This document shows positions 6,328-63,904 of a stretch of DNA of 64,000 nucleotides, piece after piece; the stretch's first letter is position 1; each line of letters begins with the position of its first letter. Both the position numbers and the translations under genes were made by a program. The notes under the pieces are model-generated. The model was not told the origin of the DNA. It saw nothing but the letters and a program-made list of their open reading frames with translations, and did not search any database. This DNA comes from Methanobrevibacter ruminantium M1 (lineage in GTDB: Archaea; Methanobacteriota; Methanobacteria; Methanobacteriales; Methanobacteriaceae). The stretch spans positions 1,945,501-2,009,500 of the forward strand of contig NC_013790.1 of the NCBI RefSeq assembly GCF_000024185.1, in the 5' to 3' direction.

Positions 6328-9300
6328 CTAGAAAGGAACAGCAGCATACTGCTTCATACTATGATAGGAATTTGTATTCCAATTTACAATATTTCCTAAA
6401 CTATTTCTTACGCTAGTGGCATCTGCTGAATACCATACGCCATCAACAAGGATTTGAGCCCATACGTGTCCTGTAACCAATCCGCTGGAGAAGGTACATC
6501 CTTGAGCATGTGAATACCTTGCAGGAATGCCTGCTGCCCTACAAAGAGCAACAACCAAACTGGCTTGGTCCACACAATTACCAGATCCAGAGCTTAAGGT
6601 ACCGTCTGCACCTTTCCTACTGTCTGAATAATAGCTGTATGAAATGTCATCCCTTACAAAATTATATATTGCAAGAGCCTTGGTTGCAGTTGAATTCAAT
6701 CCTTTGGTTAGCTGAGCAGCAACATTCTTAATGTTTGTTGTGATTGTTGACTGGCCAGTACCTACCAAATAGGCTGAAAGGTTGCTGACAGTGTTCTTCT
6801 CATTCAATCCAACCTTGAATTGGTTCATATTAGCATTGATCTTGCTGTTGATTGTCACATTAGTTGCAACATCTGGAACAACACCGATAGCTGAGCTTTG
6901 GAAAGTACAATAGGTAGGCAAATAATTATTGGTCTTATAGAAAGCTAGAATCTTTGCAAATGCAAAGGTGTAAAGCTTGAATTCAGCCTTTCCTACAGAT
7001 TTTCCATTGCTGTTGTAGACTGTAGCGAAAGTTGGAGTAATCTTATCAGATTCCACAAATGAAATGACCCTATTGGTTAGGTTCATATATTGAGCCCTAT
7101 AGACTGTAGTGTCCAAATAATCTCCAGTAGAATTGCTGCTTGCAACGCTTTTAAGGGAGATATAATTAGAGTTGCTTGCATTTATATTATGAATGGCCTT
7201 AGCCATGACATAGGAGAATTGTGAAAGGGTCAATTGGGTGCCTGCAACTGTAACGGTATTAGGCAACGCCTTATTCTTTGTGACATAAGTCTTGACATTC
7301 TCAGCAGCTGTTTCAATGTCATTCAAGAAGAATCTGGAAGAGCTGTTTGAAATAGTTACTGTGTTTGTAAGCTTTGACGCCTTATAGGCTGATGTGCCTG
7401 CATATGAAGTAGTTATGGAATATTTGCCACCTGCTAAATTGAGGGTCAATGAAGCAACACCCTTTGAATTAGTGGTCCTAGTGTAGCTGGAACTTGAAAG
7501 GGCAAATGTAATCTTCTGGTTAGCCAAAGCATTACCGCTGCTATCAGTTAAAGTAACTGAATAGTCATCTCCTCTTATAACGGAAGTGCTTGCTGCCTTA
7601 AGGCTTGTAGCCTTAACGGTAACTGCAGGAGTTGAACTTCCAGATCCGCTGGAGTTTGAAGATCCGCTTGAACTGTTAGTGGAGCTTGAACTGTTAGTGG
7701 AACTGGAGCTATTGCTTGAGCTTGAACCATTGGACGCCTTGAATACAGAACTGTCAAAGCTGCAGTAATTAGGTAAATACTTATTGGTCTTATGGAAATC
7801 CAAAATCTTTGCAAATGCAAATGTGTAAAGGTTAAATCCTGCATTTCCTAAGGAAGCGCCATTGGCATTATAAACAGTACCATAAGCAGCAGGAACCTTA
7901 TTCTTGTCTATATAGTTATAGACCCTTTTGGATAAGTCCACATATTGGGCCTTATAGACTGTAGCGTTTAATGAATTGGAAGCTGATGCCCCATTATAGA
8001 TGCCGCTTGGAAGAGTTATGGCATTAGTATTATTGGAATTAAGATTTACAATGGCTTTTGACATCAAGTATGAAAACTCTGAGATTTTCAAGTTAGTTCC
8101 GCCAACGCTTACAGTTGTAGGCACTGCCTTATTCTTATTTACATAAGCCTTTAGGTTAGTGGCGGCAGCTTCTATTTTTGCAATGGAGAAAGTCTTGCTG
8201 TTTGTACTTGGATTTGTAACAGAGAGACTTACTGTTGAGCTTGAAGCCTTATAATTGGAAGAGCCGGCATAAGAGCAGACTATTGAATATTTTTTCCCTG
8301 CAGCTAAATTGATTGCAATTGAAGCCACACCATTTGAGTTTGTGGTTCTGCTGTAGGACTTGCCTGATATCTTTATGGCGACCTTTTGGTTTGCCAATCC
8401 CTTGCCGCTTCCATCAACCAAGGTAAATGAATAGCTATTTCCCTTAACGATTGAAGTTCCGCTAGGCTTTATGCTTGTATCTCCTTTTTGAACAGTAACA
8501 GTTGCTGATACCTTGGAAGAGAGATAATTTGCAGAGCCAGCATAGGATGCAGTCAAGGTAAATTTCTTACCTGCAGCCAAATTGATTGCAATTGAAGCCA
8601 CACCTTTAGAATCGGTGGTTCTGGTATAATTCTTTCCAAGGATATTTAAGGTCACCTTCTGACTGGATAATGCCTTTCCATTTCCATCAGTCAAGGTCAC
8701 TGAATAAGCATTTCCTTTTTTAACGGTTGATCCACCTGTATTGATTTTAGTGGACATTAAATTAACTGTCAAAGCTACAGATAGCTTTGATGAAGCATAG
8801 TTTTCAGTGCCTGCATATAAGCAAGCTATGTTATACTTTCCTTTGGCTAAATTAATGTTAATGGAAGCCACACCTTTAGAATCGGTGGTCCTAGTGTAAT
8901 TTTTGCCAAGGATGTTAAAAGTCACTTTCTGACTAGCTAAAACCTTACCATTACTATCAGTTAAAGTAACATAATATGGATTGCCCCTATAGACGGAGCT
9001 TCCACTGCCTTTAAGAGTGGTTTTAGTTTTAGTACTAGCTTGAAGAGAAGATGAAGACAATTGATTTTTAGAATCCTTTACAATTTCGGATTCTGTATCT
9101 TCATTATTATTAGTACTTAAAACTTCATTTTCGAAATTAACATTACTTGAACTAGCATTGTTAGAAAGATCTGAATCATCTGCAGCAATTGAACTAGATG
9201 CACTTGAACTAGCTACAGAATCATCTCCAGAGTTTGCTACTAAATAATCATTTGAAATGCTAGAATCTGATAAGTCACTTGAAGAACTTGCTTCATCAAT

Positions 9301-9381
9301 ATCAATAGCAGATACAGAGGATATTAATACAAATCCCATTAATAAAACTGCTAAAAGCAATGTAAGATTCTTAATTGAAAT
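6328..9381 (-). CDS. Secreted pseudomurein-binding transglutaminase-like surface protein
   Basis: A protein of about 1017 residues. In 1010-residue numbering from the TTG at 9360: signal peptide 1-18, S/D/N-rich segment to 110, three Ig-like repeats (about 112-200, 205-290, 296-383) sharing LGKNYTRTTDSKGVAS, two segments resembling pseudomurein-binding repeats (about 398-440 and 475-535; KNKAVPTTVSVGG, LYTFAFAKIL), a Ser/Asn linker (540-580), a fourth Ig-like repeat, two more PMBR-like segments (about 683-830), and a C-terminal transglutaminase core with C929 (GNCVDQ), H965 (GHVWAQ) and D980 (SADAT). The architecture implies anchoring to pseudomurein and action on its peptides. Start choice: GAGGTG at 9392-9387 is followed after five bases by ATT at 9381, identical in spacing to the GAGGTGAAAAAATG start of the gene at 17756; TTG at 9360 is 26 bases from the SD. 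I therefore favour an ATT start, with TTG as the conservative alternative. Confidence 0.85.
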   Translation of the reverse strand: MSIKNLTLLLAVLLMGFVLISSVSAIDIDEASSSSDLSDSSISNDYLVANSGDDSVASSSASSSIAADDSDLSNNASSSNVNFENEVLSTNNNEDTESEIVKDSKNQLSSSSLQASTKTKTTLKGSGSSVYRGNPYYVTLTDSNGKVLASQKVTFNILGKNYTRTTDSKGVASININLAKGKYNIACLYAGTENYASSKLSVALTVNLMSTKINTGGSTVKKGNAYSVTLTDGNGKALSSQKVTLNILGKNYTRTTDSKGVASIAINLAAGKKFTLTASYAGSANYLSSKVSATVTVQKGDTSIKPSGTSIVKGNSYSFTLVDGSGKGLANQKVAIKISGKSYSRTTNSNGVASIAINLAAGKKYSIVCSYAGSSNYKASSSTVSLSVTNPSTNSKTFSIAKIEAAATNLKAYVNKNKAVPTTVSVGGTNLKISEFSYLMSKAIVNLNSNNTNAITLPSGIYNGASASNSLNATVYKAQYVDLSKRVYNYIDKNKVPAAYGTVYNANGASLGNAGFNLYTFAFAKILDFHKTNKYLPNYCSFDSSVFKASNGSSSSNSSSSTNSSSSTNSSSGSSNSSGSGSSTPAVTVKATSLKAASTSVIRGDDYSVTLTDSSGNALANQKITFALSSSSYTRTTNSKGVASLTLNLAGGKYSITTSYAGTSAYKASKLTNTVTISNSSSRFFLNDIETAAENVKTYVTKNKALPNTVTVAGTQLTLSQFSYVMAKAIHNINASNSNYISLKSVASSNSTGDYLDTTVYRAQYMNLTNRVISFVESDKITPTFATVYNSNGKSVGKAEFKLYTFAFAKILAFYKTNNYLPTYCTFQSSAIGVVPDVATNVTINSKINANMNQFKVGLNEKNTVSNLSAYLVGTGQSTITTNIKNVAAQLTKGLNSTATKALAIYNFVRDDISYSYYSDSRKGADGTLSSGSGNCVDQASLVVALCRAAGIPARYSHAQGCTFSSGLVTGHVWAQILVDGVWYSADATSVRNSLGNIVNWNTNSYHSMKQYAAVPF

Positions 9382-10492
9382 TTTTTCACCTCACTTTTTT
9401 TCAAAATAATTGAAAAAATTAAAGAAAATATATATTCTTAATAATATATAGTATATTTTTTTATTTTTCTATAATTTGAATAAATTTGTAGATATTTTTT
9501 ATGATTCTTTTAAAAGAATTCTTAAATAATTCTAAAAAAAATATTTAAAAAATACTTTTTAAAATCGCTATAAAAAAAATCCAAAAACAAAATTCATTCC
9601 ATTTACTTAATCAAATTAAGAAGAATGCCTTTTTGATTAAATAAAATTTAATTATTTTGAATTATTTACAAATTTGAAATATTTTTTCAAATTGATTAAT
9701 TAAATATTATATTTTCAAGTTATATAAATATTACTGTAAAAAATTATTTCAAATAAGGCCAATCCATACTCTAAAAATTAATTTACTCAATCTAAATAGT
9801 TAATTTAAGATAAAAAAAATAAAAATTAATTACTTACTGTAAAAAGATAAAAATATTTAGAAAAAAGAAGAACTAAGACATTATAATTGTAAAAATATAA
9901 AAAGGGCTTTGAATCCTTTAATTAAAGAATAAATACTTATAATTACTTATTTTAATGAAATTTAAGAAAATATTACTTTGATAAATAGAAAATAAAATAA
10001 TTATCATTATTTAAGTTAAAAAAGAATAACTAACTATTATTGATATTTGATATTAAAGTGAAATCAATTACTATTTTTAGAATACATATATTAAATCTAT
10101 TAATTTAAAAAAATAAAACAATTAAAGAGTATTTGAAGTGAATGATTAATAATTAAGTAGTATTATCCAAAAAACAATGAAATAAACTTGAAATAAAAAA
10201 ATAAAGAAAAATTATTAAAAAATCACAAAAAGTTATAAAAATTTTAATAATAATTTTTCAATATATTTTAGAATTCCTATAAAAATTCTATATAAAAAAA
10301 ATAATATAATATAAATAAATTATAGTGATATTTTAATTAAAAAAATAAAAAATAGTTAATAATTTAAATTTTTACCAACCCAAAAAAAACACTATTTTTT
10401 AAAGTTTGAAAAAATAGATAAAAAAAAATAAGAAGAATTAGATAAAAATAAAAAAAAATAGCTAAAAAAAAGAATACTAAAAAAAATAAAAA
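9382..10492. other. 1.1-kb AT-only spacer without recognisable gene
   Basis: Apart from the SD and promoter region of the minus-strand gene ending at 6328 (within about 150 bases of 9382) I find no convincing coding frame, RNA gene or strong palindrome. Composition is almost entirely A/T with short A runs. It separates two large surface-protein genes on the same strand. Confidence 0.6.
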
Positions 10493-19919: not shown

Positions 19920-20144
19920 TCAATCAGTAAACTCAATTAACTCTATATCAACTATATTAACTTCTATATCCTTATCATAAATATAAAACTTATTGTCCTT
20001 AAATTCAAACTTTTTTTCCTTAGAGATTCTAATTGATCTTCCATCAGCAAAATAAACATAAACATAAGAAAAGTTTTCAACCAGTTCTTCAACTGATTTT
20101 TGATTATGCTCTTCAATCATTCTTAAATCTTCTTCTTCACTAAT
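19920..20144 (-). CDS. Small acidic protein, unknown; probable ATT start
   Basis: 74 residues, MSEEEDLRMIEEHNQKSVEE..., acidic, with a helical N-terminal half and an alternating beta-like C-terminal half (VYVYFADGRSIRISKEKKFEFKDNKFYIYDKDIEVNIVDIELIEF). No family recognised; the C-terminal part resembles a small beta-sheet fold. Start: AGGTG (20155-20151) is followed after six bases by ATT at 20144, then AGT GAA GAA GAA, a typical N-terminus. The upstream GTG at 20153 overlaps the SD and ATG at 20120 is too far. The ATT reading is an inference shared with two other genes here. Confidence 0.55.
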   Translation of the reverse strand: MSEEEDLRMIEEHNQKSVEELVENFSYVYVYFADGRSIRISKEKKFEFKDNKFYIYDKDIEVNIVDIELIEFTD

Positions 20145-20266
20145 AAAAATCACCTAAATTAAATAAAATAAGTTTAAATAAACCATAAAAAAAAGAAATA
20201 TAGAAAATAAATATAGAAAACTAAAAAATAGTTTTAAAAAATAAATAAAGAATAAATTAAATCAAT

Positions 20267-61819: not shown

Positions 61820-62596
61820 ATGAAAAAGAAAATAGCAATCACAAGACCTCAAGAACGGTCAAAAGCCGCAAAGGAGTTTATAGAAAACTATGGATCCGAA
61901 GCAATCATAGTCCCAACACTTGAATTGAAACTGGAAAATACCGAATCACTAAAGAACCTGATGGAAAAATCCAATGAGCTAGACTGGTTGATATTTACAT
62001 CAGTAAGTTCAATCGAATCAATCTTTGAATTCTATCCGGACTTCTTGGACAAGTTGAATCCAGAGTGTAAAATTGCAACCATAGGTACTAAAACTGCAGA
62101 ACTTGGTATAAAAAAAGGACTCCCTATAGACATCATACCTAAAGATTATACTGCTGAAGGACTGCTTGAAGAATTTGAAAGAATCGACTTAAATAATAAA
62201 AATGTTGGCGTCCCTAGGACATTTTCTGCAAGGACTATTTTACCTGAAGGACTTAAAAATATGGGGGCAAATGTGATCTTGGCTGAAAGTTATAAATCAG
62301 TCATTCCAGAGGACACAAGCAAGATAGAAAAACTGATTCAATGCATCTTAGATGAAAAGATTGACGGAATCACATTTACAAGTCCTTTAACTGTATCAAA
62401 CCTTTTTGAAATAGCTAAAGATGAAGATAAGGATAATCTAGTTGAAAAGTTATCTACAACAACCCTTACTGTAGCTATTGGACCAATTACAGGTAATATA
62501 TTGAACCAATTAGGAGTAAATCACATCTATCCAAAAAGGTATACTGTAAAAGACATGATTGACTTGATGTTTAGGGAGTTAAACAATAGGGAATAA
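61820..62596 (+). CDS. hemD: Uroporphyrinogen-III synthase
   Basis: 258 residues. Two-lobed HemD fold: KKKIAITRPQERSKAAKEFIE, LDWLIFTSVSSIESIFEFY, CKIATIGTKTAELGIKKG, VPRTFSARTILPEGLKNMGA, and IDGITFTSPLTVSNLFEIA with TVAIGPITGNIL in the second lobe. It cyclises hydroxymethylbilane with D-ring inversion; its product is the substrate of the SUMT at 57425. HemD sequences are poorly conserved, but this pattern is clear. Confidence 0.92.
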   Translation: MKKKIAITRPQERSKAAKEFIENYGSEAIIVPTLELKLENTESLKNLMEKSNELDWLIFTSVSSIESIFEFYPDFLDKLNPECKIATIGTKTAELGIKKGLPIDIIPKDYTAEGLLEEFERIDLNNKNVGVPRTFSARTILPEGLKNMGANVILAESYKSVIPEDTSKIEKLIQCILDEKIDGITFTSPLTVSNLFEIAKDEDKDNLVEKLSTTTLTVAIGPITGNILNQLGVNHIYPKRYTVKDMIDLMFRELNNRE

Positions 62597-62725
62597 TATT
62601 GAAAATTGAAAAAACAAACGATGCTATTAAAAAAAAAATAATTTTTAGACAATTAAAAAAAAAAAGATTTTAGAAATATTAGAACCAATTACGAATTTAA
62701 GTAATCAATCAGAGGAGGAATTTCT

Positions 62726-63904
62726 ATCAATCAATTTAAAATAAGCATAATCATACCTGTTTACAATGGAGAGAAATATCTTCCACTAACTTTAGATTCA
62801 GTAATCAATCAGACAATTGGAATTGAAAATCTGGAAATCATTATAGCGGATGACTGTTCAACAGACAACACTGCTAAAATCATTCAAGAATATAAGGAAA
62901 GGATAAATTCGGATACTGGAAAGGAAACTATAAAATCCATATCTCTTGAAGAAAACAAAGGAGGAGCATTCGGTCCCCGCAATCTTGCATTGAATTATGT
63001 GAATGGAGAATATCTGATGTTTATTGATTCAGATGACACATATCCAAAAGACGCTTGTGAGATTCTCTTAAATAAAATAGAGGAATATGGATGCGACATT
63101 GCCTTTGGAAGATATCTTAGGCATTATCCGGAAGAGAATTTCATAAGAAAATCCTACACTCCCTATATCGACACCCTTGATGAACCATATCTTAGCTATT
63201 TAGATGATTTAGTAAAGGGATCCAACTTTAAGGGAATAGTAGGGAGCCTTTGGAAAAACATATTCAGCAAGTTCTTCTATGGTAGCTCCATAGATATGAA
63301 TAAGTTCAATTCAAAGGAATCTGATAATTCCCACCCAAAGGAACTGGATAAAAATTATAAAAATAATAAAGAGATATTCATAAGAAATATTAAGGATGAA
63401 AATAAAGAGGAAATAGCTATCTTAAAGATTTTACCTTCATTTTGGACTAAAATCTATAGAAGCGAACTTATAAGCAAAAACAATATCAATTTCCCCGAAT
63501 GTGTCTCTGCAGAGGATTTGAACTTTCTATTGGAAGCATACTTTAAAAGCGAAAATGGAATTTTGTTTTTGAATGACAAGATTGTCTATAATTATTTTAT
63601 GCGTTTAGAGGTTGTAGATAAGTCAGTTACAAAAAATATCAATTTCAGATTGGTTTATGATTCAATTAAAGCATATAGATTGTCTTCAGAGCTTTGTGAC
63701 AATTTCAATATAAAGAATAAGGACCTGTTCCTAAACCCTTATCTATTAAACTGGATAAGCTTATGGCTAAGCAGAAAAAATACAAAAGAGGAAAATAAGA
63801 TATTTTTAGAGGAATTTGATAAGTTAGATAAGACTAAAAAGTATGGTTTGAAGTATAAATTGATTTTAAAGACCACAAAATTATTATTAAAAATAAAATC
63901 ATAA
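62726..63904 (+). CDS. Family 2 glycosyltransferase with probable ATC start
   Basis: About 392 residues. The N-terminal GT-A core reads NQFKISIIIPVYNGEKYLPLTLDSVINQT, EIIIADDCSTDNTAKII, NKGGAFGPRNLALNYVNGEYLMFIDSDDTYPKDACEIL, with the nucleotide-site DxD as DSDD. The C-terminal part is divergent and helical, with an acidic SAEDLNFLLEAYFK acceptor-site motif. No ATG, GTG or TTG occurs in frame before 62990, which is beyond the first two catalytic blocks. GAGGAGG (62712-62718) is followed after seven bases by ATC AAT CAA at 62726, exactly where the start should be; the frame opens at 62705. I infer an ATC start. Sugar donor unknown. Confidence 0.8.
   Translation: MNQFKISIIIPVYNGEKYLPLTLDSVINQTIGIENLEIIIADDCSTDNTAKIIQEYKERINSDTGKETIKSISLEENKGGAFGPRNLALNYVNGEYLMFIDSDDTYPKDACEILLNKIEEYGCDIAFGRYLRHYPEENFIRKSYTPYIDTLDEPYLSYLDDLVKGSNFKGIVGSLWKNIFSKFFYGSSIDMNKFNSKESDNSHPKELDKNYKNNKEIFIRNIKDENKEEIAILKILPSFWTKIYRSELISKNNINFPECVSAEDLNFLLEAYFKSENGILFLNDKIVYNYFMRLEVVDKSVTKNINFRLVYDSIKAYRLSSELCDNFNIKNKDLFLNPYLLNWISLWLSRKNTKEENKIFLEEFDKLDKTKKYGLKYKLILKTTKLLLKIKS

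Follow-up and report, generated by a model that had tools for sequence, protein, structure and literature searches.

The window, that is the whole 64,000-nucleotide stretch of DNA of the rumen methanogen Methanobrevibacter ruminantium M1 that was analysed, covers positions 1,945,501-2,009,500 of a genome held in one contig of 2,937,203 bases. Downstream of hemD it carries the gene of a GT2 glycosyltransferase, whose reading frame runs uninterrupted from 62705 until the stop codon at 63902-63904 (Table 1). On the forward strand the codons of its 5' region read TAA (62702-62704), TCA, ATC, AGA, GGA, GGA, ATT, TCT, ATC (62726-62728), AAT, CAA, TTT, AAA, ATA, AGC. The original prediction, which described a GAGGAGG motif followed after seven bases by ATC-AAT-CAA-TTT-AAA, is matched exactly by these letters, and its statement that no in-frame ATG, GTG or TTG precedes 62990 is equally correct, the TTG at this position being the first canonical codon. 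The distance of 7 nt between the Shine-Dalgarno (SD) motif and the ATC is the modal spacing for ATG codons preceded by a strong SD in this genome (266/556). Counted from the ATC, the Glycos_transf_2 domain (PF00535, Pfam) extends over residues 7-156 and is aligned from profile position 1 onward (E=3.9e-36). Since the TTG corresponds to residue 89, a start at this codon would remove more than half of the domain; the original prediction had expected the catalytic strands to be lost.

Table 1. Features of the GT2 locus and of the other main near-cognate start candidates (window coordinates unless marked as genome).
Feature	Position	Strand	Remarks
hemD (uroporphyrinogen-III synthase), upstream gene	61820..62596	+	HEM4, E=9.2e-47
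In-frame stop TAA	62702..62704	+	Closes the frame upstream of the GT2 gene
Shine-Dalgarno GAGGAGG	62712..62718	+	GGAGG-type in congeners, each GGAGG base in 15-16/16
Spacer AATTTCT, 7 nt	62719..62725	+	TTTC kept in 15-16/16 congeners
ATC, proposed start codon	62726..62728	+	ATC/ATT/ATA, never ATG, in congeners
GT2 glycosyltransferase gene, 392 codons plus stop	62726..63904	+	Glycos_transf_2 and codon-position divergence pattern
TTG, first in-frame canonical start, rejected as start	62990..62992	+	Domain and conservation evidence
Adhesin-like gene, probable ATT start at 9381	6328..9381	-	SD GAGGTGA 9386-9392
74-codon gene, probable ATT start at 20144	19920..20144	-	SD AGGTGA 20150-20155; in-frame GTG 20151-20153 inside the SD
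PyrB	genome 8668, L268:249-1169	-	ATT/ATA start
CTP synthase PyrG	genome 1645139, L270:221-1840	-	CTG start

A search of the genomes of the genus produced clear GT2 orthologues in a further 16 species; in one of these the gene is divided between two contigs. In these 16 species, where the 5' end is readable, a GGAGG-type SD and a conserved spacer are followed at the same codon by ATC, ATT or ATA and never by ATG. This arrangement, on comparative grounds, is beyond chance. A codon alignment was built from 15 of the orthologues together with the window gene; among these 16 sequences the start codon is ATC in seven, ATT in five and ATA in four. No ATG, GTG or TTG is found between the preceding in-frame stop and the ATH codon in 12/16, the window gene included. 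The four others possess an in-frame canonical codon 3-16 codons upstream and could, taken alone, start elsewhere. The segment separating the ATC from the TTG at 62990 (codons 2-88) displays divergences of 0.18/0.12/0.47 at codon positions 1/2/3, like the rest of the gene (0.21/0.10/0.46), and conservation among congeners does not extend upstream beyond the SD. This coding-like pattern, combined with the lack of conservation upstream of the SD, indicates that the segment is translated and that reading would begin at or next to the ATH codon.

The original prediction proposed to check whether orthologues have ATG at this position. They never do within the genus, but some sister genera do: in the same family, the homologous codon is ATG in the genera numbered g5, g6 and g8 (as in ATG AAT GAA AAA ATA AGC) and ATT or ATA in g4, g10, one g16 genome and one g7 genome. 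On a midpoint-rooted tree of 29 GT2 proteins, the AUH/AUG label requires 2 changes, against a mean of 7.9 for shuffled labels. The claim that the GT2 gene starts at the ATC is thus supported by the same codon being ATC, ATT or ATA in 16 congeneric species and ATG in other genera.

Several other explanations of this start have to be considered. A single base, C for G, separates ATC from ATG, and a sequencing or assembly error could in principle have hidden an ordinary start, a case that the original prediction had itself named as refuting; this explanation is refuted by the sixteen independently sequenced congeneric genomes, which carry ATC, ATT or ATA and no ATG, and its probability is practically nil. 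The TTG at 62990 is the start that a conventional ORF finder would choose, either as the true start of a shorter protein or in a pseudogene that has lost its start codon. Besides the truncation of the domain, no SD is seen before this TTG, the segment upstream of it is under coding constraint and open in every orthologue, and the next canonical codon is scattered from 9 to 88 codons downstream across the orthologues, which makes this explanation exceedingly improbable.

Translation might also begin before the ATC, either in a different frame or at an unorthodox codon (GGA, the ATT at 62720 or TCT), the ATC then encoding an internal isoleucine. In favor of such a start, ATH is also the complete set of isoleucine codons, and the codon preceding it is mostly a serine codon (TCT, TCC or TCA). 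However, in several species the stop and the ATH are separated only by GGA GGA ATT/TTT TCT, the region upstream is not conserved, the spacing between SD and ATH is the genome mode and ATG occupies the ATH position in other genera. The ATT at 62720, moreover, is replaced by TTT or another codon in some species and lies one base from the SD. An upstream start is consequently judged very unlikely. The GT2 gene is very probably translated from the AUC at 62726, by means of its SD and the ordinary initiator tRNA, and would belong to a conserved set of near-cognate starts in Methanobrevibacter and its relatives.

Two further ATT starts had been proposed in the window. The one at 9381 is as described, with GAGGTGA followed by ATT, and is a probable start as judged from the window sequence alone; a TTG at 9360 sits 7 codons downstream of it without an SD. 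The ATT at 20144 is real as well, and the same codon is ATT in 11 species and ATG in 2, but the prediction did not mention the in-frame GTG located inside the SD, and this case is less clear when taken alone. The leader form of this 74-codon gene is also seen at genome position 384846 (minus strand), where a coiled-coil protein gene reads GGTGATTTTT-ATT-TCA-GAA, its SD being overlapped by an in-frame ATG-GTG.

Further near-cognate starts were searched for in 80 stretches of 20 kb which, with the window, amount to 1.664 Mb or 57% of the genome. Coding frames, 1121 in this sample, were obtained with a dicodon model; a gene finder based on codon usage lacked power, with 434-488 genes, and was dropped. 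A start finder blind to codon identity proved too noisy, and its place was taken by a strict SD filter, which retains a non-canonical codon located 6-8 nt after a strong SD in genes deprived of any SD-preceded canonical start, and which still yields false matches at internal SD-like sites. With this filter, ATH codons are enriched after a strong SD (10/5726 vs 25/42533 for all other codons, Fisher p=0.006), some of the matches in both classes being false. The canonical starts with a strong SD in the same sample comprise 337 ATG, 33 TTG and 11 GTG. About ten credible near-cognate starts per 1121 frames suggests, as a rough estimate, that some 1% of the genes are concerned.

Six candidates were compared with their congeners: a CbiO-like ABC ATPase, a DUF3100 membrane protein, PyrB (aspartate carbamoyltransferase), PyrG, the 74-codon gene and QueE. 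Three others were left uncounted, namely an adhesin fragment that may be a pseudogene (genome 594105), a gene with in-frame ATGs upstream (genome 832399) and L070:1243. The CbiO-like gene combines an SD with ATT in 14/14 species, 11 of them unambiguous; its paralogue in these genomes starts mostly with ATG. ATT or ATC is found in 12/12 aligned DUF3100 orthologues, 10 of them unambiguous, behind a weaker SD. For PyrB, all 16 congeners have ATT (11) or ATA (5), and nine are unambiguous. QueE has ATT in 13 species and ATG in 2. In the ATT species, both QueE and the 74-codon gene contain a GTG in frame inside the SD; this GTG is absent from the ATG species, whose start occupies the position of the ATT codon. 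Because of this GTG, the two genes were kept as supporting evidence only. Two additional observations concern AUA. A DUF3100 paralogue (L206, genome 774949-776298, minus strand) has GGAGG, 7 nt and ATA ahead of its conserved region. This ATA may be a start, and an ATG lies in the same frame still further upstream. An adhesin-like protein with a signal peptide (L076:16791-19736, minus strand, genome 895736) has a probable ATA start after GGGAGGTGA.

CTP synthase may be the strongest near-cognate case of all. Its start is CTG in 16/16 congeners, 15 of them unambiguous. Another 60 PyrG start regions of Methanobacteriales, drawn from 18 genera in three families, show CTG in 42, TTG in 12 and ATG in 6, the homologous position being thus canonical in some genera. 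The CTG is unambiguous in 13/42 (nine in g5 and one each in g6, g7, g13 and g16), and g5, g7 and g13 each include one genome in which a stop codon directly precedes it. In the remaining 29, a canonical codon, often a TTG within the SD, is found in frame further upstream, and either start would fit. The presence of near-cognate starts on both PyrG and PyrB may hint at a shared control of two pyrimidine genes.

No canonical start can give the whole conserved protein in 12/16 sequences for GT2, 15/16 for PyrG and 11/14 for CbiO. Kept over long evolutionary times, these codons look like real starts, and the AUC, AUU, AUA and CUG starts would be genuine ones overlooked by the usual AUG/GUG/UUG rules. 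The proposal that this organism makes use of near-cognate AUH starts is supported by the conserved CbiO-like, DUF3100 and PyrB genes, and is extended to CUG by PyrG.

As regards mechanism, the strong SD at an optimal distance would position the small ribosomal subunit on the AUC of the GT2 gene, where the ordinary initiator Met-tRNA (anticodon CAU) would pair with a mismatch at the third position; the protein would thus presumably begin with methionine, and initiation would be less efficient than at AUG. A tRNA search of the whole genome gave 58 matching loci, 30 of which were read with their neighbours by ARAGORN. These comprise one initiator tRNA-Met(CAU), one intron-bearing tRNA-Met(CAU), tRNA-Ile(GAU) and another CAU tRNA resembling tRNA-Ile2; no extra initiator-type tRNA with a non-CAU anticodon was found among these 30 of the 58 loci. 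The aIF1 gene is present and normal, and a non-AUG start sought in this gene itself was not found, its start being ATG. Since neither the initiator tRNA gene nor the aIF1 gene looks unusual, these starts are likely to work through mispaired initiation by Met-tRNAi(CAU), driven by the SD. No special decoding device was found among the genes read, and SD-anchored initiation with a mismatched codon-anticodon pair is the simplest reading. Against an AUC start stands the reported action of aIF1, which favours discrimination against non-canonical (non-AUG) starts in archaea (PMC6237735). It has been suggested that a U at -1 could strengthen the pairing of the initiator tRNA (PMC4587860). This base is common in GT2, CbiO, DUF3100 and PyrG, but supports no conclusion because 40% of ATG genes share it. 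The spacers between SD and start are pyrimidine-rich in several near-cognate genes (window 62719-62725 for GT2), unlike the A-rich positions -2/-3 of ATG genes.

Whether such starts are maintained by selection is a separate question. Invariant codons are found in only one of 33 all-leucine columns of PyrG and in 7 of 151 degenerate columns of CbiO, and yet the CTG of PyrG and the ATT of CbiO are invariant, a hint that a start which is weak or regulated has been selected for. The missing third-base G at ATH starts is weaker evidence of selection: multiplied over four genes, the chance of this absence is about 0.11, which is not significant since in many fourfold columns G is likewise missing from every species (about half in GT2, PyrB and CbiO, 70/101 in DUF3100). 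It can be proposed, as a tentative and rather doubtful idea, that Methanobacteriales keep by selection a defined set of near-cognate starts, AUH and, in CTP synthase throughout the order, CUG. These would act as built-in dampers of translation or as sensors, which might respond for instance to initiation fidelity or to the pyrimidine state. Such a set would be a counterpart of the infC type without IF3, a bacterial factor that is not known from archaea. We infer both the reduced yield and the regulatory role of these starts. The alternative, which competes with the regulatory reading only, is that the near-cognate starts are real and without a role, being tolerated and subject to drift; it has nearly an even chance of being correct. 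GT2, the ABC ATPase, DUF3100, PyrB, PyrG and QueE share no functional theme, GT2 and PyrB drift among ATC, ATT and ATA, the 74-codon gene and QueE switch to ATG, and G is equally absent from roughly one half to two thirds of the fourfold columns. The invariance of the PyrG and CbiO starts against so variable a background speaks against drift, as does the persistence of the PyrG CTG across three families.

These starts would have practical consequences. In a major group of methanogens, gene callers restricted to ATG, GTG and TTG would overlook genes of this kind or cut them short, among them those of CTP synthase and aspartate carbamoyltransferase. The start codons usually listed for archaea would become more numerous, and natural conserved test cases would become available for start-codon fidelity as set by aIF1 and SD strength. 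If the weak start is selected, it would constitute a simple translational control of a kind for which no archaeal description was found in the open-access literature searched. Likewise, no paper on AUH/CUG starts in Methanobacteriales was found in the open-access literature, which is weak evidence of novelty.

One of the closest known systems, as cited in PMC9845219, is infC of E. coli, whose AUU start serves the autocontrol of IF3 (Butler 1987; Brombach & Pon 1987). Both share a near-cognate AUH codon after a strong SD, which in infC limits the expression of a chromosomal gene. The infC product is the very factor that rejects AUU, hence its autoregulation, whereas here the trait is shared by unrelated genes. 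A product that itself judges start codons, the mark of the infC type, is not encoded by the genes compared, whose products are GT2, CbiO-like, DUF3100, PyrB and PyrG, and aIF1 starts with ATG. Chloroplast genes also possess non-AUG starts conserved in evolution, which are read as a layer of translational control; the natural cases are GUG and UUG in organelles (PMC9845219), whereas AUH and CUG are found here in an archaeal order. A review of archaeal initiation (PMC7531240) names AUG, GUG and UUG as starts. The GUG and UUG starts described there resemble the present ones by their non-AUG initiation, their SD-led mRNAs and the ordinary initiator tRNA, and differ from them in that the mismatch of AUH falls on its third base and that CUG does not figure in the list of starts. 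Near-cognate starts as such are known; what seems to be new, as far as the open-access literature searched shows, is a conserved AUH and CUG set in an archaeal order, CTP synthase included.
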